From Myxococcota bacterium (GTDB taxonomy: Bacteria; Myxococcota_A; UBA9160; PR03), in contig JASJBO010000373.1 of NCBI GenBank assembly GCA_030066475.1, forward strand, positions 1 through 7,058: a stretch of 7,058 bases of DNA. Direction: 5' to 3'. The translations under genes and the position numbers were made by a program. Positions 180 to 6,871 of this stretch are shown here, piece by piece; the stretch's first letter is position 1, and each line of letters opens with the position of its first letter. Under the pieces are notes generated by a model. It did not search any database. It was given only the letters and a program-made list of their open reading frames with translations, and had not been told where the DNA came from.

Positions 180-761
180 ATGCCGAAGCTGGTCGACGCC
201 GCCACCCAGCGCAGCGAGATTCGCCACGCGGCGCGCCGCGTCTTCGCGCGGCGCGGGGTGCGCGCCACGGGGCTCGCCCACGTGGCCGACGCTGCGGGAC
301 TCGCCCGCTCGAGCCTGTACCACTACTACCCCGACAAGAAGGCACTGATCCGCGACCTCGCGCGGGAGCTGCTCGCCGACGAGGAGCGCCTGTTCGCGCG
401 CGCCGCGCAGGCGCCCGGCGCGCCGCTCGACCGTGTCGCCGAGCTCGCGGGCACCGCCACGCGCCTGTTCGACGAGTGGGCGGCGCTGGGCCGCGTCGTG
501 TTCGACCTGCGCATGCTCGAGAGCGCCCGCTTCCGCAGCTACTTCCATCGCATCCGCGAGCACCTGGCGGCCGTCGTCCGCGCGGGACAGGCCGGCGGCG
601 AGATCGACGCGACGCTCGAGCCGGAGCTGGCCGCGGCCGCCGTGATCGGGCTGATCGACGGCCTGCTGCTCCAGCACTTCGCCGATCCGCATGTCTTCGA
701 GGACCGCGAGGCGCTGGCCGCGCAGGTGGAGCGCCTGGTGCGCAAGGCGTTGAGCTCGTGA
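180..761 (+). CDS. TetR/AcrR-family transcriptional regulator
   Basis: This 193-residue protein has the usual TetR length. Its N-terminal DNA-binding domain contains the family signature: a basic helix (about 11-25, AARRVFARRGV), then a helix-turn-helix at about 30-50 (GLAHVADAAGLARSSLYHYY), followed by PDKKALIRDL. The remaining residues (about 65-193) are the variable all-helical ligand-binding and dimerisation domain, so the inducer cannot be predicted. The start is the ATG with GAGGGG just upstream. The TGA stop overlaps the GTG of the methyltransferase gene by four bases (GTGA). With the 22-base palindrome over its own -10 box, it probably represses itself and the two genes behind it, and is released by a small molecule linked to the operon's chemistry. 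Family assignment is firm; ligand and targets are inference. Confidence 0.93.
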   Translation: MPKLVDAATQRSEIRHAARRVFARRGVRATGLAHVADAAGLARSSLYHYYPDKKALIRDLARELLADEERLFARAAQAPGAPLDRVAELAGTATRLFDEWAALGRVVFDLRMLESARFRSYFHRIREHLAAVVRAGQAGGEIDATLEPELAAAAVIGLIDGLLLQHFADPHVFEDREALAAQVERLVRKALSS

Positions 762-1420
762 GCTCGCTCGCCCTGATGCGCCTGCTCGAGTCGGGACCGC
801 AGCGCTACGACGCCGGCATGCGCGCGGTGACGCTGGGCCGTGTCGCCCGGCTGCACGACGCGGTGGCCGCAGCCGCCGCGCCGCGCCCGGGTGCGCGCGT
901 ACTCGAGATCGGCTGCGGCACCGGGGCCGTCACCGCGCGCCTGGTGGCGCGGGGCGCGCGGGTCACCGCCCTCGACCAGAGCCCGGACATGCTCGAGCAG
1001 GCGCGTCACCGGCTCGACGGACGGGACGACGTCGAATGGCTCGAGCGCACCGCGGCCGAGATCGACGCGCTTCCGGCTGCCGGCTACGACGCCGTCGTGC
1101 TCTGCCTGGTCCTCTCCGACATGTCCGCCGCGGAGCGTCGCTTCGTGCTGCGCGAGTGCGCGCGGCGCCTGGCGCCGGGGGGCGTGCTCGTCGTGGGCGA
1201 CGAGGTGCGGCCCGCACGCCGCGCGCAGCGCTGGCTCCAGTCGCTCGCCCGCGCGCCCCAGGCGGCGCTCGGCTGGGTGCTGGTGGGCTCCGTCTCGCGT
1301 CCCCTGGCAGACCTGCCCGCCGAGCTGCGCGAGGCCGGCTTCACGGGGTACCCCGGGGAGAGCTGGCTGCTCGGCAGCCTGGCAACGTATACGGCCCGCC
1401 TCGAAGGGCGAGCGCCGTGA
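758..1420 (+). CDS. cpaM: Class I SAM-dependent methyltransferase, likely corrinoid-protein-associated (CpaM-type)
   Basis: This is a 220-residue cytosolic Rossmann-fold methyltransferase. Motif I, the SAM-binding glycine loop, is VLEIGCGTG (48-56). The acidic residue that binds the SAM ribose is Asp73 (ALDQSPDML). Motif IV is around AVVLCLVLSDM (112-122), and the RLAPGG turn is at 137-142. The GTG start overlaps the tetR stop (GTGA), and AAGG at 744-747 can serve as ribosome binding site. An in-frame ATG at 776 is the alternative start. The gene's own stop overlaps the GTG of the HgcAB-like gene, so the two products are probably made together. I recall a named family, corrinoid protein-associated methyltransferase CpaM, defined by this neighbourhood, and I use that symbol tentatively without a search. 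The substrate is unknown. It might feed a methyl group to the corrinoid, modify the partner protein, or methylate the target compound. The methyltransferase fold is certain; the subfamily is likely. Confidence 0.85.
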   Translation: MSSLALMRLLESGPQRYDAGMRAVTLGRVARLHDAVAAAAAPRPGARVLEIGCGTGAVTARLVARGARVTALDQSPDMLEQARHRLDGRDDVEWLERTAAEIDALPAAGYDAVVLCLVLSDMSAAERRFVLRECARRLAPGGVLVVGDEVRPARRAQRWLQSLARAPQAALGWVLVGSVSRPLADLPAELREAGFTGYPGESWLLGSLATYTARLEGRAP

Positions 1421-2517
1421 CCGCCCGGGAGCTGGCGCTCGAGGTGCTCCAGACGGCGTTCCGGCTGGTCCCGTGGCCGACCGAGCCGGGCCTGCGGCGG
1501 GTGGGCGAGCCGGGGCCGCTCTCGCCGGTGCTGATCACGGGGAACTTCGACCTCACCGTGCGGCGCCTGCTGCGCGCGCTGGAGGGCCTCGACGTCTGGG
1601 TGGTCGTGGCGCCCTCCTCCGGCATCAACGTCTGGTGCGCCGCCTCGGGCGGCCATCTCGGCACCCATCAGGTGGTGACGGCGCTCAAGACCTCGGGCGT
1701 GGAGGACGTCGTGCGCCACCGGCGCGCGATCCTGCCGCAGCTCGCCGCCACCGGCGTGCGCGGCCGCGACGTCGGGCGCCGCTGCGGCTGGCGCGTGCGC
1801 TTCGGGCCGGTGGACGCGCGCGATCTCCCCGCCTACCTGGCCGCGGACGCGCGCAAGACCGAGGCGATGCGGCGCGTGCGCTTCGGGCCGCTGCAGCGGC
1901 TCGAGATGGCCGCCGTGTGGGCCGCTCCCACGGCGCTGTTGCTGGGCGGCGTGACGGCCCTGCTGCGGCCCGCCTGGGCCCTGCCCCTGGCCGGGCTCGC
2001 GTGCGTCCTGGCCGCGTTCGTGTTCCTCGCCTACGACCGCATCCCCGGGCCGCGTCGCGTCCTGCTCGGCGCCGGCGCGGCGTGCGCGGCGGCCGCCGTG
2101 GCGGCACTGGCCGGCGGCGGCCTCCCCGCGGTCGGCGTGGCGGCCGCCTGCGGCGCCTTCCTCACGGGTGTGCTGACCTACGACTACGCCGGCTCGACGC
2201 CCGTCGAGGGCGGCAGCCACTTCGCCGAGCGGAGCTGGCACGTGACGCTCGACCGCGAGCGCTGCCGGGGCGTGTTCACGTGCTGGGAGGTGTGCCCCGA
2301 GGCCTGCTTCGAGAGACGGCCCGAGGCGAGGCAGGTGGAGCTGGTCCACGGCGAGCGCTGCGTGCGCTGTGGCGCCTGTGTGGTGCAGTGTCCCATGGAC
2401 GCGCTCGCCTTCGAGGACGACGCCGGCCGGCGCATCGACCCCGAGGAGATCCGCCGCTTCAAGCTCAACCTGCTGGGTCGACGGCGCGTCGCCGCCGGCG
2501 ATCCGTCGGCAACCTGA
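1417..2517 (+). CDS. HgcAB-like fusion protein: corrinoid-binding domain, four membrane helices and dicluster ferredoxin
   Basis: This is a 366-residue membrane protein. Residues about 37-160 resemble the HgcA corrinoid-binding domain: ITGNFDLTVRRLL, the cap-helix core NVWCA (71-75, with Cys74 as expected lower ligand of cobalt), HRRAILPQL (101-109), RVRFGPVDARDLPAYL (126-141) and EAMRRVRFGP (149-158). Four hydrophobic segments follow (about 163-183, 186-206, 214-233, 236-254), then the HgcA-like YAGSTP turn (257-262). Residues about 273-335 form an HgcB-like ferredoxin. Its first cysteine set is Cys283, 289, 293 and 297 (Cx5Cx3CP pattern). The second is a complete CxxCxxCxxxCP at 315-326. 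HgcA takes a methyl group on its corrinoid and passes it to Hg(II), and HgcB is its reductant; here both parts are in one chain. Four helices with basic flanks put both domains in the cytoplasm. The usual GK after NVWCAA is SG. The start is GTG with GAAGGG (1403-1408), overlapping the methyltransferase stop. Homology is firm; mercury as substrate is unproven. Confidence 0.88.
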   Translation: MTARELALEVLQTAFRLVPWPTEPGLRRVGEPGPLSPVLITGNFDLTVRRLLRALEGLDVWVVVAPSSGINVWCAASGGHLGTHQVVTALKTSGVEDVVRHRRAILPQLAATGVRGRDVGRRCGWRVRFGPVDARDLPAYLAADARKTEAMRRVRFGPLQRLEMAAVWAAPTALLLGGVTALLRPAWALPLAGLACVLAAFVFLAYDRIPGPRRVLLGAGAACAAAAVAALAGGGLPAVGVAAACGAFLTGVLTYDYAGSTPVEGGSHFAERSWHVTLDRERCRGVFTCWEVCPEACFERRPEARQVELVHGERCVRCGACVVQCPMDALAFEDDAGRRIDPEEIRRFKLNLLGRRRVAAGDPSAT

Positions 2518-2570: not shown

Positions 2571-3377
2571 ATGGCCGAGCTCGTGAGCCTCGAGCGCCCG
2601 CGCGAAGGCGTGGCGCTGGTCACCATGACCAACCCCGCGATCCGCAACCATGGCTCCTGGCAGGCGATCGAGGCGCTCGCGGCGGCGCTCAGCGAGGCGC
2701 GCGAAGGCGGCGCGCGCATCACGGTGCTCGCCTCGGGCGTCGAGGGGCACTGGCTCGAGCACGCCTGGCTCACCGACCTGTCGCGCGCGGTCGAGGGCAA
2801 GCCGACCAGCGGCGACGGCGCCGCCTGGTTCCGCGCGCTCGACGAGATCGCCCGCAAGCCGGTCGTGACGATCGCGGCGATCTCGGGCGACTGCTCGGGG
2901 GGCGGTGCGGAGCTGGGCTGGGCCTGCGACCTGCGCATCGCCGAGGAGCAGGCTTGCTTCTCGCAGCCCGAAGTGATGATCGGCGTCGCGACCGGCGTGG
3001 GCGGGACCTGCCGGCTGGCGCGCCTGATCGGACGCACCGCCACTGCGGAGATGGTGCTCGACGGGGCGCCGTTGACGGCGCGACGCATCTACGAGCTCGG
3101 AGGCGTGAACCGCGTGGTGCCCACGGGCCAGGCACGCGCCGCGGCGCTCGCCTGGGCCGAGCGGCTCGCCGAGCGACCCGCCCACTCGCTGGCCGCCCTC
3201 AAGCAGATGCTGGTGGAGAGTGACGACCTGCACCTGACCGACGCGCTGGCGAACGAGCAGAAGCGCTTCCAGGGCGTCGTCACCCGGCCCGAGGCGCTGG
3301 AGGGCATGCAGCGCACCCAGGCCCGCTTCGACGCCGGCGAGACCCTGCGCGAGGTCTACGGATCGCCGCGGGATTGA
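2571..3377 (+). CDS. Enoyl-CoA hydratase/isomerase family protein (crotonase fold)
   Basis: This 268-residue protein has the normal length for a single-domain crotonase. The core reads VVTIAAISGDCSGGGAEL (98-115), then CDLRIAEE, then FSQPEVMIGVATGVGGT (130-146). Glu114 and Glu134 are 20 residues apart and match the two catalytic glutamates of mammalian enoyl-CoA hydratase (Glu144 and Glu164 in the rat enzyme). This suggests a real hydratase rather than one of the many other crotonase activities. The first CoA/oxyanion region is atypical: NPAIRNHGSW (21-30) replaces the usual N-A-L/F pattern, and the stretch normally reading like AGADIKE is GVEGHWLEHAWLTDL (56-70). The substrate may therefore differ from simple fatty enoyl-CoA. 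The ATG is preceded by GGAGG (2562-2566). The next gene starts at or within a few bases of the stop, so the pair is probably co-transcribed. The exact substrate is not predictable. Confidence 0.93.
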   Translation: MAELVSLERPREGVALVTMTNPAIRNHGSWQAIEALAAALSEAREGGARITVLASGVEGHWLEHAWLTDLSRAVEGKPTSGDGAAWFRALDEIARKPVVTIAAISGDCSGGGAELGWACDLRIAEEQACFSQPEVMIGVATGVGGTCRLARLIGRTATAEMVLDGAPLTARRIYELGGVNRVVPTGQARAAALAWAERLAERPAHSLAALKQMLVESDDLHLTDALANEQKRFQGVVTRPEALEGMQRTQARFDAGETLREVYGSPRD

Positions 3378-3382
3378 GTGCC

Positions 3383-4336
3383 GTGGACGCGCGCGACGCC
3401 GCCATCCGCACCGAGTGGATCGACACCGCCGGCCTGCGCTTCGAGGTCGACACCTGCGGCGACCCGGGCAGCGACCGGCTCGCCCTGCTGCTGCACGGCT
3501 TCCCCGAGCTCGCCTGCTCCTGGCGTCACCAGATGCCGCTGCTGGCGCGGCTCGGCTACCGCGTCTGGGCGCCCAACCAGCGCGGCTACGGGCGCTCGCC
3601 GCGCCCACTCGACATCGCGAGCTACCGGCTCGAGCGCCTGGTCGAGGACGTCGGGCACCTGATCGACGCCTCGGGCAGCGGCGCGGTGACGCTCGTCGGC
3701 CACGACTGGGGCGGCGCCGTGGCCTGGTTCCTCGCGCTCGCCAAGGCGCGCTCGCTCGAGCGCCTGGTCGCGATGAACTTCCCCCATCCGACCCGCTTCC
3801 GGGAGGGCCTGCGCACCTGGCGGCAGATGCGGCGCTCCTGGTACGCCTTCTTCTTCCAGGTGCCGCGGCTGCCCGAGTGGCTGCTGGGCCGGCGCGACGC
3901 ACACGCGATCGGCGAGATGTTCCGCCGCGGCGCGGCCGATCCGAGCCGCTTCCCCGACGAGGTGCTCGAGGTCTACCGCACGCACGCCTGCCAGCCGGGT
4001 GCGCTGCGGGCCATGCTCAACTGGTACCGCGCGGCGCTGCAGCAGCCCGGCCCGCTCTCCGATCTCTCGCTCGAGCCGCCGCCGATCGACGTCCCCACGC
4101 TGCTGCTGTGGGGCGATCGCGATCTGGCGCTGGGCGCCGAGCTCGCCGACGACACCGAGCGCTTCGTGCGCGACCTCACCGTGCGTCACCTGCCGGACGC
4201 GTCGCACTGGGTGCAGCAGGACGCGCCGGAGCTCGTGAACGAGCTGCTCGAGGCCTGGCTGCTCGACCGCCCGGTGCCCGAGGTAGGCCCCGACGGATCG
4301 CTCCAGCCGCCCGCGGCGGGCGCGCTCCCCGTCTGA
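3383..4336 (+). CDS. Alpha/beta-hydrolase, epoxide hydrolase type
   Basis: This is a cytosolic alpha/beta-hydrolase of about 317 residues with the full epoxide hydrolase signature. Numbered from the GTG start, it has the oxyanion-hole motif HGFPE (38-42), the nucleophile Asp108 in GHDWGG (106-111), the acid Asp247 in WGDRD (243-247) and the base His275 in DASHWVQQ. The cap domain has the two ring-opening tyrosines expected for the family, Tyr154 (WYAFFFQVP) and Tyr215 (NWYRA). Such enzymes form a covalent ester with the epoxide and hydrolyse it to a diol. Asp as nucleophile also occurs in haloalkane dehalogenases, but the two tyrosines argue for epoxide hydrolysis. GTG at 3383 is chosen because GGGA (3370-3373) sits nine bases upstream. 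TTG at 3374, overlapping the preceding stop (TTGA), is an alternative adding three residues. It is probably co-transcribed with the crotonase. The Pro-rich tail after about 295 looks disordered. Confidence 0.92.
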   Translation: MDARDAAIRTEWIDTAGLRFEVDTCGDPGSDRLALLLHGFPELACSWRHQMPLLARLGYRVWAPNQRGYGRSPRPLDIASYRLERLVEDVGHLIDASGSGAVTLVGHDWGGAVAWFLALAKARSLERLVAMNFPHPTRFREGLRTWRQMRRSWYAFFFQVPRLPEWLLGRRDAHAIGEMFRRGAADPSRFPDEVLEVYRTHACQPGALRAMLNWYRAALQQPGPLSDLSLEPPPIDVPTLLLWGDRDLALGAELADDTERFVRDLTVRHLPDASHWVQQDAPELVNELLEAWLLDRPVPEVGPDGSLQPPAAGALPV

Positions 4337-4478: not shown

Positions 4479-5336
4479 GTGCGGCAGTGGATGTGCAGGC
4501 GAATGGCGGCGGCTGTGGTGGGCGCCACCGTCCTGGCCTGGGGCGGCGCGACTGCCGTCGCCCTCCCGGTCACCTTGATCGACGGCAGCTCGGTCGTCAC
4601 GGTCGACCCCGAGTCCGAGCAGGGCCTCTCGGCCTGGACCGTGAACGGCGTGGTCCACGTGCGCGAGCAGGGCTTCTGGGTGCGCGTCGGCGACACCGGG
4701 CCCGAGGCCTCGCTGGCCGGCCTCGTCCTCGACAGCCAGCTCGCGAGCGACGTCGACCGGGACGGCCACGACGAGACCCTGGTCGCCATGCTGGCGGACC
4801 CGCTCGGACGCTTCGGGCTGGAGCTGCGCTGGAGCGTGCTGGGCAGCCGGATCGGCGTCGGCTCGACGGCGGCCTCGGACATCGCCGTGCAGATCGCCCT
4901 CACCAATCTGACGGACGCGCCGCTCGCGGTCAGCCTGTTCGAGTACACGGACGTCGACGTCCTGGGCAGCTTCGCGGACGACGTCGCCGAGTTCTCGGGC
5001 ACGCCCCCCAACACGCTGCGCGCGGGCGACGCCAGCGGGCTGGCCCGCTACGAGTCGGTCTGGACCGCGGCGCCCGGCGCCGTGGAGGCCGCGCTCTTCG
5101 ACGACACGCTCGCGAGCCTGCGCGACACCGCGCCGACCGAGCTCGACGGCACGCTCGCGGCCGCGGGCGACGTCACCGGCACCGTACAGTGGGACCTGCG
5201 GCTCGAGCCCGGGGCGACCCGCATCCTGAGCCAGGATCAGGGCGTGGACGTGCTACCCGTTCCGGAATCCGCCACGAGCTGGCTGCTGGGGTTGGCCGCG
5301 CTGCGCGCCCTCCGGCGCCGGGGAGTCCGCGCTTGA
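4479..5336 (+). CDS. Secreted protein with PEP-CTERM-like sorting signal
   Basis: This 285-residue protein reads as an exported envelope protein. From the GTG start, a basic region (RQWMCRR), a hydrophobic core (about 10-27) and a likely cleavage after Ala28 (TAVA before LPV) form a Sec signal peptide. The C-terminus has the tripartite PEP-CTERM layout: VPES (261-264, in place of the usual VPEP), a short hydrophobic segment (266-278) and a basic tail (RRRGVRA). In known systems this signal is processed by an exosortase at the inner membrane before surface delivery. The middle is an acidic, beta-rich-looking domain of about 230 residues that I do not recognise. DVDRDGHDE (91-99) resembles a calcium-binding loop. 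The variant motif and rather short hydrophobic stretch lower certainty about sorting. The TGA overlaps the TTG of the phosphatase gene, so the two exported products are probably made together. Confidence 0.8.
   Translation: MRQWMCRRMAAAVVGATVLAWGGATAVALPVTLIDGSSVVTVDPESEQGLSAWTVNGVVHVREQGFWVRVGDTGPEASLAGLVLDSQLASDVDRDGHDETLVAMLADPLGRFGLELRWSVLGSRIGVGSTAASDIAVQIALTNLTDAPLAVSLFEYTDVDVLGSFADDVAEFSGTPPNTLRAGDASGLARYESVWTAAPGAVEAALFDDTLASLRDTAPTELDGTLAAAGDVTGTVQWDLRLEPGATRILSQDQGVDVLPVPESATSWLLGLAALRALRRRGVRA
5320..5325 (+). promoter_or_regulatory. Ribosome binding site deciding the TTG start of the PhoD-family gene
   Basis: GGGGAG lies seven bases before TTG 5333, inside the 3' end of the preceding gene. 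Starting here places the twin-arginine motif near the N-terminus. No better start is visible nearby upstream in this frame. Confidence 0.55.
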
Positions 5337-6871
5337 GCTCGAGCCGCCTGTCCCGCCGCCACTTCCTCCAGCTCGCCGCCGCCAGCGCCGCCACCGCGGC
5401 GGTGCGCTGCGGGTCGGGCGAGTCGCAGCTGCCGGACTGGCCGTTCCGGCTGGGCGTCGCCTCGGGCGACCCCCTGCCCGATCGCGTCGTGCTCTGGACC
5501 CGCCTCGCCCCCGATCCGCTGGCGCCGCGCGGCGGCATGCCGGACGCGCCCGTCCCGGTGTTCTGGGAGGTGGCGAACGACGAGGGCTTCTCGCTGATCG
5601 TGCGCACCGGCCTCGCGGTCGCCTCGCCCACCCTGGCGCACTCCGTACACGTCGACGTGAACGGGCTCGAGCCCGACCGCTGGTACTACTACCGGTTCTG
5701 GGCGGCCGGGCACGCGAGCGAGGTGGGGCGCACGCGCACCATGCCCGCGGCGGACGGCGCCCCTGCGCGCCTGCGCTTCGCGAGCGCCTCGTGCCAGAAC
5801 TTCAAGGAGGGCTTCTACACCGCCTACGCCAACCTGGTCGAGGAGGACCTCGACCTCGTGGTGTTCCTCGGCGACTACATCTACGAGTCGGGCATGGACG
5901 GTCCCGTGCGCCAGCACGACGCCGGTCGCATCCAGGATCTCACCGGCTACCGGAACCGCTACGCGCACTACCGCAGCGACCCGAACCTGCGCGAGGCCCA
6001 CGCCCGCTTCCCGTGGATCGTCACCTGGGACGACCACGAGGTCTCGAACAACTACGCGGGGCTGCTGCCGGACGAGAACGCCCCGTCCTCGGCGCCCCCG
6101 CCCGAGCGCTTCCCCGCGCTGCGCGGCGAGGCCTACCTGGCCTGGTACGAGCACATGCCGGTGCGCCTGCTGCCGCCCAAGACCAACGCGCTGCGCATCT
6201 ACCGCCAGCTCGACTTCGGCGACCTGGCCTCGTTCCTGGTGCTCGACACGCGCCAGTACCGCACCGACCAGGACTGCATGGACGAAGCGCTGGCGCCGAT
6301 CTGCCCGGAGTTCCCGAATCCCGACGGCGACATGCTGGGTCCGGCCCAGGAGAGCTGGATGACCGCCCGGCTCGGGGCGTCGAGCGCGATCTGGAACGTG
6401 CTCGCCCAGCAGGTGGTGTTCTCGCCGACGCCGCTGGGCGTCGCGCTCAACTACGACCAGTGGGACGGCTACCCGATCGCGCGCCAGCGGGTGATCGACT
6501 TCCTCGACCAGGCCGCGATCCGCAACCCGGTGGTGCTGACCGGCGACGTGCACGCGTCGGGAGCCAGCTTCGTGCCGCGGGACGTGGCCGGCTTCACGGG
6601 CCCGCTGGCCGCGGAGTTCGTGGCCACCGGCATCTCGTCGGGCGGCCTCGACGAATCGACCGCCCAGCTGGTCGAGACCATCCTGCAGGGCTACCCGCAC
6701 GTGAAGTACTTCGACGCGGTGCTGCGCGGCTACATCCGCCACGAGGTGACGCGCGAGACCTGGCGCGCCGACTTCCGACTGGTCGAGACCACCGCGCAGG
6801 AGAGCTCGCCGATCGCCACGGCCGCGAGCTTCGTGGTCGAGGACGGCAACCCGGACCCGCAGCCCGCCTGA
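5333..6871 (+). CDS. phoD: PhoD-family alkaline phosphatase/phosphodiesterase, Tat-exported
   Basis: This 512-residue protein is of normal length for the family. It begins with a Tat signal: SRRHFLQ (7-13) followed by an Ala-rich hydrophobic stretch, so it should fold and load metal in the cytoplasm before export. Cys26 follows Arg and does not make a lipobox. Residues about 37-140 form the N-terminal beta domain usual in PhoD (FRLGVASGDPLPDRVVLWTRL). The catalytic metallo-phosphoesterase domain has all expected blocks: SCQN (153-156, Cys as iron ligand in Bacillus subtilis PhoD), GDYIYE (180-185), TWDDHEVSNNY (231-241), DTRQYR (305-310) and GDVHAS (404-409). By family precedent it uses Fe and Ca to hydrolyse phosphate mono- and diesters in the periplasm or outside. 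The TTG start overlaps the PEP-CTERM-like gene's stop (TTGA). The substrate is unspecified and no Pho box was seen. Family assignment is firm; the symbol is at family level. Confidence 0.94.
   Translation: MSSSRLSRRHFLQLAAASAATAAVRCGSGESQLPDWPFRLGVASGDPLPDRVVLWTRLAPDPLAPRGGMPDAPVPVFWEVANDEGFSLIVRTGLAVASPTLAHSVHVDVNGLEPDRWYYYRFWAAGHASEVGRTRTMPAADGAPARLRFASASCQNFKEGFYTAYANLVEEDLDLVVFLGDYIYESGMDGPVRQHDAGRIQDLTGYRNRYAHYRSDPNLREAHARFPWIVTWDDHEVSNNYAGLLPDENAPSSAPPPERFPALRGEAYLAWYEHMPVRLLPPKTNALRIYRQLDFGDLASFLVLDTRQYRTDQDCMDEALAPICPEFPNPDGDMLGPAQESWMTARLGASSAIWNVLAQQVVFSPTPLGVALNYDQWDGYPIARQRVIDFLDQAAIRNPVVLTGDVHASGASFVPRDVAGFTGPLAAEFVATGISSGGLDESTAQLVETILQGYPHVKYFDAVLRGYIRHEVTRETWRADFRLVETTAQESSPIATAASFVVEDGNPDPQPA

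Follow-up and report, generated by a model that had tools for sequence, protein, structure and literature searches.

Organisation of the operon

The stretch of DNA described here, referred to as the window, comprises positions 1 to 7,058 of contig JASJBO010000373.1 from a Myxococcota bacterium (assembly GCA_030066475.1). Within it, positions 131–2517 form a single operon in which a promoter-like site and a palindrome precede the genes for a TetR-family repressor, an S-adenosylmethionine (SAM) methyltransferase called CpaM and a 366-residue HgcAB-like fusion protein. The repressor frame extends from ATG at 180 to TGA at 761 (193 amino acids), that of the methyltransferase from GTG at 758 to TGA at 1420 and that of the fusion from GTG at 1417 to TGA at 2517, with the four-base overlap GTGA at both the TetR/methyltransferase (758–761) and the methyltransferase/fusion (1417–1420) junctions. 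This three-gene operon, with its coordinates and both overlaps, had been proposed in an earlier interpretation of the letters alone (the sequence-only reading) and is borne out by reading the sequence. The methyltransferase and the fusion protein have the following features.

758–1420, + strand: CpaM, a class I SAM methyltransferase of 220 amino acids with the SAM motif LEIGCGTG (NF043040, 260 bits)
1417–2517, + strand: HgcAB-like fusion protein of 366 amino acids (NCBIfam NF043039, 386.6 bits)
1468–1851, + strand: HgcA-type corrinoid domain, residues 18–145
1627–1644, + strand: cap-helix motif NVWCAA, residues 71–76, with the predicted cobalt-ligating Cys74 at 1636–1638
1888–2181, + strand: four predicted membrane helices, residues 158–183, 185–208, 213–231 and 236–255 (AlphaFold2 model; hydropathy count)
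2236–2421, + strand: ferredoxin domain, residues 274–335, with the motifs C-x5-C-x3-CP and then C-x2-C-x2-C-x3-C

Both proteins exceed the cut-offs of their NCBIfam families, which stand at 180 bits for CpaM (NF043040) and 285 bits for HgcAB_like (NF043039), so that the window adds one more example of this already-named but functionally unassigned pair. As NCBIfam names both proteins, its curators had already linked them. The earlier description of the third product as an HgcAB-like fusion agrees with these scores, the same protein falling below cut-off with the profiles for HgcA (NF040863, 164.4 bits against 275), HgcB (NF040864, 46.3 bits against 99) and corrinoid iron–sulfur protein (CFeSP) gamma (NF003195, 72.3 bits against 306). 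A search of the open-access literature, with most subscription papers outside its reach, found no paper containing the CpaM phrase, NF043039 or NF043040.

As NF043039 requires, the corrinoid domain, the membrane helices and the ferredoxin are contained within one chain. The corrinoid domain is matched by CdhD (PF03599, 43.7 bits, residues 18–140), with Fer4 families also matching the protein, and the cap-helix stretch reads INVWCAASGG (residues 70–79), in which N71, W73 and C74 are invariant across 94 aligned proteins. Cys74 is predicted to provide a cobalt–thiolate because HgcA Cys93 has that role (PMC11588087). In the AlphaFold2 model of the fusion (pLDDT 92.2, pTM 0.89) four long helices separate the corrinoid and ferredoxin parts. 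The first cluster motif of the ferredoxin is without its second cysteine (C283-x2-V286-x2-C289-x3-C293), as is also the case in Heimdallarchaeota and Aminicenantes loci, and this incomplete form resembles that of 7Fe ferredoxins. C283, C289, C293, C315, C318, C321 and C325 are invariant across the 94 proteins, and the window fusion has no cysteine beyond C325, where the last cluster motif ends. The pair of CxxCxxCxxxCP motifs of HgcB is thus not found, V286 replacing the second cysteine of the first, and equivalents of HgcB Cys73 and of the C-terminal Cys94/95 are absent. The sequence-only reading was right to see a corrinoid domain with an NVWCA cap helix, membrane helices and a ferredoxin in one chain, but its term ‘HgcB-type’ was too strong because of the HgcB score of 46.3 bits, the missing second cysteine and the lack of any cysteine after C325.

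CpaM is matched by the Pfam families Methyltransf_12, Methyltransf_25 and Methyltransf_11 at 71–73 bits, and its fold resembles that of the small-molecule methyltransferases Coq5 and RebM. Residues E11, Y17, G52, G54, G56, M78, S120 and E149 are invariant across 65 sequences, among which no cysteine or histidine is invariant; the nearly invariant C53 sits in the SAM motif.

Conservation of the CpaM and HgcAB-like pair

The locus search was limited to the best 80 of 584 and the protein lists to the best 120 of 1743, 350 and 902, and the counts consequently favour near relatives. Counting the window with the 80 relatives gives 81 loci. CpaM lies directly upstream in 61 of them and is fused in 12, giving 73 of 81, so that the order of methyltransferase and fusion is conserved, and the absence of conserved order that would have refuted the sequence-only reading did not occur. 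Where CpaM is upstream, 11–88 bases separate its end from the start of the corrinoid match, save for one case at 213. Four of the eight loci without CpaM reach contig ends (L008, L012, L022 and L027), three hold true HgcA (L077, L078 and L080) and the last, L059, is the one real exception. The order is kept across many phyla, including archaea. In the phylum sample of genome G002, 23 of 282 genomes exceed the HgcAB-like cut-off and CpaM is present upstream at the locus in all 23, the overlap with the first locus set being at least 7 and probably 10 loci.

The partnership extends to the content of whole genomes. Of 36 genomes that encode an HgcAB-like or CpaM–HgcA protein, 35 have a CpaM above cut-off, as against 0 of 8 with HgcA-type proteins only (Fisher p 5e-8), a comparison among genomes that were picked via these genes and in which the HgcA label of five of the eight comes from motif, score or tree and not from the HgcA cut-off. 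CpaM is above cut-off in none of 14 control genomes. One genome (G129) has two HgcAB-like genes and two CpaM genes. Four others (G022, G029, G035 and G036) hold true HgcA above cut-off together with a CpaM-linked protein, and the two types are therefore not interchangeable versions of one gene. No further partner gene is fixed in place across phyla in the relative loci, where other neighbour clusters lie at scattered distances, although the survey used simple gene calling that may miss genes in GC-rich DNA; the sole exception is one minus-strand gene on the upstream side in four loci of Heimdallarchaeota (L030, L032, L035 and L052).

Natural fusions and membrane topology

Three architectures are found: CpaM with an HgcAB fusion, as in the window, a CpaM–HgcA fusion with a separate ferredoxin (L055, L056, L069–L073, L076 and L079, with L074 cut by a contig end) and a single CpaM–HgcA–HgcB chain (L068 and L075). 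Among the best 120 relatives of L075, 118 have a CpaM match, all 120 contain the corrinoid domain and the two occur together with a later cluster motif in 115, whilst 89 of the 114 newly listed relatives of L076 combine CpaM with the corrinoid domain, 18 of them also with a cluster motif; both sets of counts include partial proteins. The AlphaFold2 model of one triple fusion (P0134) has a pLDDT of 85.9 and a pTM of 0.82. In two fused proteins with such NCBI names the name misses the fusion, P0217 being called ‘HgcAB-like fusion protein’ and P0280 ‘CpaM’.

The number of membrane helices, taken across the relatives from a simple hydropathy count, fits the topology because an even number leaves ferredoxin and corrinoid on the same side in a fused chain. 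HgcAB fusions have four helices in 36 of 38 loci (three in 2) and in 113 of the 120 listed proteins (three in 7), and triple fusions have four in 91 of 115 (three in 22, five in 1 and two in 1). For CpaM–HgcA the count is five in 8 of 9 loci (four in 1) and in 54 of the 66 proteins listed (four in 10, one or two in the other two), and for HgcA it is five in 5 of 7 (four in 2).

Two variants were observed alongside. The Poribacteria locus L076 encodes a CpaM–HgcA fusion at 9275–11499, and its separate ferredoxin, with CMECGAC and a GPGC cysteine and without a CC tail, is intermediate between HgcAB and HgcAB-like; the same genome also has true HgcA. An HgcAB-like clade of five metagenome-assembled genomes (L051, L059, L065, L066 and L067) has a cysteine-rich tail with FRxGxCSCPTC in all five and CC in L051, L059 and L066. 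An ArsR-type regulator is upstream in all five, in L051 within the same open frame as CpaM, and the ArsR profile NF033788 is above cut-off in all three examined (L059, L066 and L067). A metal or metalloid is a possible substrate of this clade. In L065 and L066 an additional 161-residue gene lies between ArsR and CpaM, and the L066 protein has no Pfam or NCBIfam match.

Relationship to HgcA and CFeSP

The sequence-only reading had placed the corrinoid domain with HgcA and not with CFeSP, and phylogeny agrees, with support of 100 in a first tree and 100/99 in an 86-row tree. HgcA itself forms one clade that excludes the window, at 99 and 100/96 respectively. In the 86-row tree HgcA nests inside the CpaM-linked proteins, at a weak 91/72 and with a long-branch warning. 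Approximately unbiased (AU) tests rejected neither an arrangement with all CpaM-linked rows on one side (p 0.244, with L059 counted as CpaM-linked even though it is without CpaM) nor one that joins HgcA and the two odd HgcA rows in a single clade (p 0.295). Once nine long or odd rows had been removed, leaving 77, the constrained tree was no worse (p 0.514), and HgcA and its nearest fusions were grouped at a support of 61/40. As they stand, the trees neither establish nor exclude a nesting of HgcA among CpaM-linked proteins.

Two divergent HgcA-like proteins (L127 and L141), which scored around 87 bits in the search by domain, have the cap helices NVWCASGKG and NVWCAAGKG, have no CpaM within the fetched stretch and cluster with CpaM–HgcA fusions on a long branch. 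In L077, L080 and L086 the HgcB frames downstream of hgcA end straight after NPGVG, the usual place of Cys73, an ending that would fit the GVGU selenocysteine form listed by PMC13188914.

The repressor and its putative operator

The upstream part of the operon contains the following features.

131–159, + strand: sigma-70-like promoter TTGACG-17-TATTGT, its −10 hexamer falling within the putative operator
144–165, no strand assigned: putative TetR operator TTTTCGACA-GTAT-TGTCGAAAA, a perfect 9+4+9 palindrome
171–176, + strand: likely ribosome binding site GAGGGG, read from the sequence
180–761, + strand: TetR-family repressor of 193 amino acids without cysteine (PF00440, 52.2 bits; PF13977, 40.8 bits)

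The repressor contains the TetR_N helix-turn-helix (PF00440). The promoter-like match is the sole one within positions 1–2700, 50 shuffles averaging 0.0, and it is overlapped by the palindrome, through which TetR would repress by covering the promoter. TetR adjoins CpaM in 9 of 13 Myxococcota-clade loci having upstream sequence (present in L002, L004–L007, L009, L011, L013 and L014, absent from L001, L003, L010 and L044, with L008 and L012 excluded on account of contig ends). The fusion had been described from the window as locked to both a methyltransferase and a repressor; the first of these links holds in 73 of 81 loci, whereas TetR belongs to the version of this lineage and not to the general CpaM/HgcAB-like module.

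The palindrome is conserved within the lineage. Its core, TCGACA-N4-TGTCGA, is found upstream in seven of eight TetR-bearing relatives with promoter sequence, the exception being an imperfect form in L014, with L011 cut; it is also upstream in L111, L113 and L128, and not in L117. The 18-base operator pattern occurs in 8 of 28 genomes, at nine sites in total, the other 20 genomes being without it, and a control pattern has no site in the same 28. Of the nine, seven belong to the operon, another accompanies a second TetR in G129 and an unassigned one (G009) is close to a contig end; in six of the eight genomes the site at the operon is the only one. The relative TetR proteins have between 0 and 3 cysteines, none of them conserved; because of this variation, and as the window copy has none, induction by a thiophilic metal is unlikely.

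Host genomes and neighbouring genes

The hosts of the window clade (G001–G012) are likely to be aerobes, a haem-copper oxidase family protein being encoded in 12 of 12. The oxidase is also above cut-off in 9 of 24 other HgcA-like hosts and 2 of 3 HgcA-only hosts, and hence fails to set this family apart from other HgcA-like hosts; the oxidase and HgcA/CFeSP scans covered the genomes of 39 of the 80 loci. The oxidase family PF00115 can include nitric oxide reductases. B12-binding domains are present in 12 of 12 hosts and CobS in 1 of 12, so that most of them probably import cobamides, and no CFeSP-like second match was found in these draft genomes. Absences of CobS, CFeSP and CpaM come from genomes of unstated completeness.

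Downstream of the operon, and on the same strand, are an enoyl-CoA hydratase (2571–3377), beginning 53 bases past the operon end, and an alpha/beta hydrolase (3383–4336). The sequence-only reading had noted such genes of aerobic catabolism next to the operon, but neither recurs among the neighbours in the 80 relative loci. Further along, at 5333–6871, is a PhoD-like alkaline phosphatase (PF09423, 338 bits) with an apparent twin-arginine signal (SRRHFLQL). An Rfam search gave no match at gathering level. PADLOC likened P0002 to mad2 (80.7 bits, residues 31–152) and P0003 to mad1 (18.3 bits), matches that were read as a generic methyltransferase core and a helix-turn-helix, and a defence system was therefore rejected.

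Proposed function

With a probability of roughly 0.5, the operon encodes a self-contained corrinoid methyltransferase, SAM-fed, anchored in the membrane and controlled by a repressor of its own, in which CpaM charges the corrinoid. The ferredoxin domain, kept cytosolic by the four membrane helices, would reduce the bound corrinoid to Co(I). CpaM would then bind SAM and methylate Co(I) to give methyl-Co(III), with cap-helix Cys74 as a ligand, after which the methyl group would be handed on to an acceptor. Finally, TetR would be freed from the palindrome by this acceptor or by something connected with it. A dedicated charging enzyme is proposed because a SAM methyltransferase is the near-obligate and often fused partner of these relatives of the SAM-using HgcAB.

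The acceptor is probably not mercury. HgcA Cys93 and HgcB Cys73, Cys94 and Cys95 are reportedly critical for mercury methylation (PMC11588087), and of these the window keeps only the counterpart of Cys93, namely Cys74. Moreover, Methanococcoides methylutens with fused hgcAB formed no methylmercury, and Pyrococcus furiosus is cited as the first fused-hgcAB case without methylmercury in culture (PMC5893877). The absent cysteines and these two cases lend indirect support to the earlier suggestion of a corrinoid methyl-transfer module whose substrate may not be mercury. With the metal-handling cysteines of HgcB missing and a repressor devoid of conserved cysteine, a thiophilic metal appears less likely as the acceptor in the window lineage than an organic or lipophilic electrophile.

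Several observations weigh against corrinoid charging by CpaM. No class I SAM methyltransferase is known to methylate a corrinoid cobalt. L059 has an HgcAB-like protein (9070–10272) with no CpaM nearby and none elsewhere in its genome as sequenced. On contig 88 of G129 (L138:194–1541) the second TetR, with an identical 18-base operator, adjoins a CpaM-like methyltransferase whose 69.8 bits fall short of the 180-bit cut-off, and no corrinoid partner was found in the 10 kb covered, an arrangement that suits a CpaM acting on the inducer. Finally, HgcAB draws its methyl group from SAM via methylcobalamin with a cobalt–thiolate, methylating its own corrinoid without CpaM (PMC11588087), so that a separate charging enzyme is not chemically required.

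In the strongest alternative, a possible though distinctly less probable one, CpaM methylates the acceptor and not the corrinoid, and CpaM and a SAM-using HgcAB-like protein add successive methyl groups to the compound sensed by TetR. It gains from the unaided use of SAM by HgcAB (PMC11588087), from the operator-linked pair of G129 and from the likeness of the CpaM fold to Coq5 and RebM. The near 1:1 co-occurrence and the repeated fusion of CpaM with the corrinoid domain are harder to explain in this way, and the G129 methyltransferase, being under the CpaM cut-off, may be a different enzyme.

Methylation of mercury, or of some other thiophilic metal or metalloid, in the manner of HgcAB and with the metal delivered differently, is unlikely. 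The invariance of the cap-helix cysteine in 94 proteins and the clade with an upstream ArsR-type regulator and cysteine-rich tail would suit such a role, but the window lineage is without equivalents of HgcB Cys73, Cys94 and Cys95, its repressor is a TetR without conserved cysteine, and the fused-hgcAB organisms M. methylutens and P. furiosus are reported to have made no methylmercury (PMC5893877). That the operon serves fatty-acid or aromatic catabolism with the downstream hydratase and hydrolase, as their shared strand and the 53-base gap might suggest, is very improbable given that these genes are not recurrent neighbours and that the CpaM–HgcAB pair also occurs in archaea. A stray acetyl-CoA-pathway part, belonging to CFeSP and carbon monoxide dehydrogenase, is hardly credible and was rejected. 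CFeSP gamma gives the best sequence match among solved structures, yet both trees split CFeSP from the corrinoid domain with full support, the draft hosts have no CFeSP-like second match and they look aerobic.

If CpaM does charge the corrinoid, a broader and more tentative proposal follows, in which CpaM would be a dedicated class I SAM:corrinoid methyltransferase, an enzyme of a kind that we do not know to have been described. The CpaM-coupled module, found widely among bacteria and archaea and in likely aerobes too, would be ancestral to the mercury-methylating HgcAB, which would have arisen by loss of CpaM and gain of mercury-handling cysteines, a combination we regard as doubtful. Were it true, SAM as the methyl donor of HgcAB would be inherited. 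A near-obligate, often single-chain SAM methyltransferase partner together with the palindrome makes function testable, and with it the role of fused HgcAB proteins and of mercury-methylation proteins before mercury. Surveys based on the NVWCA motif alone should be treated with caution, as they also count proteins without mercury-handling cysteines in likely aerobes.

Comparison with known systems

To the NCBIfam pair are added here the partnership counts, the co-occurrence, the common single-chain fusions, the kinship with HgcA and the lineage-conserved palindrome. NF043040, the corrinoid protein-associated methyltransferase, is typed hypoth_equivalog with no assigned function, and the window protein, above its cut-off, is encoded directly upstream of the corrinoid protein gene with the overlap at 1417–1420. 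NF043039 has the same chain layout as the window fusion, from which the window branch differs by the incomplete first cluster motif and the TetR partner. The fused HgcAB proteins of P. furiosus and M. methylutens are likened to the window fusion through their description as fused hgcAB.

CFeSP gamma (2ycl, 2h9a), despite being the closest solved structure by sequence, aligns well only over about 318–443. The NVWC cap helix is missing in seven CFeSP rows, and the protein is without membrane helices and occupies a separate tree branch. HgcA and HgcB share with the window the NVWCAA cap helix, the HgcA-type domain, a membrane part and a ferredoxin. In contrast to them, the window fusion is below both cut-offs, lies outside the HgcA clade and is without the mercury-critical cysteines of HgcB, and it has CpaM as a partner and four membrane helices where HgcA mostly has five.

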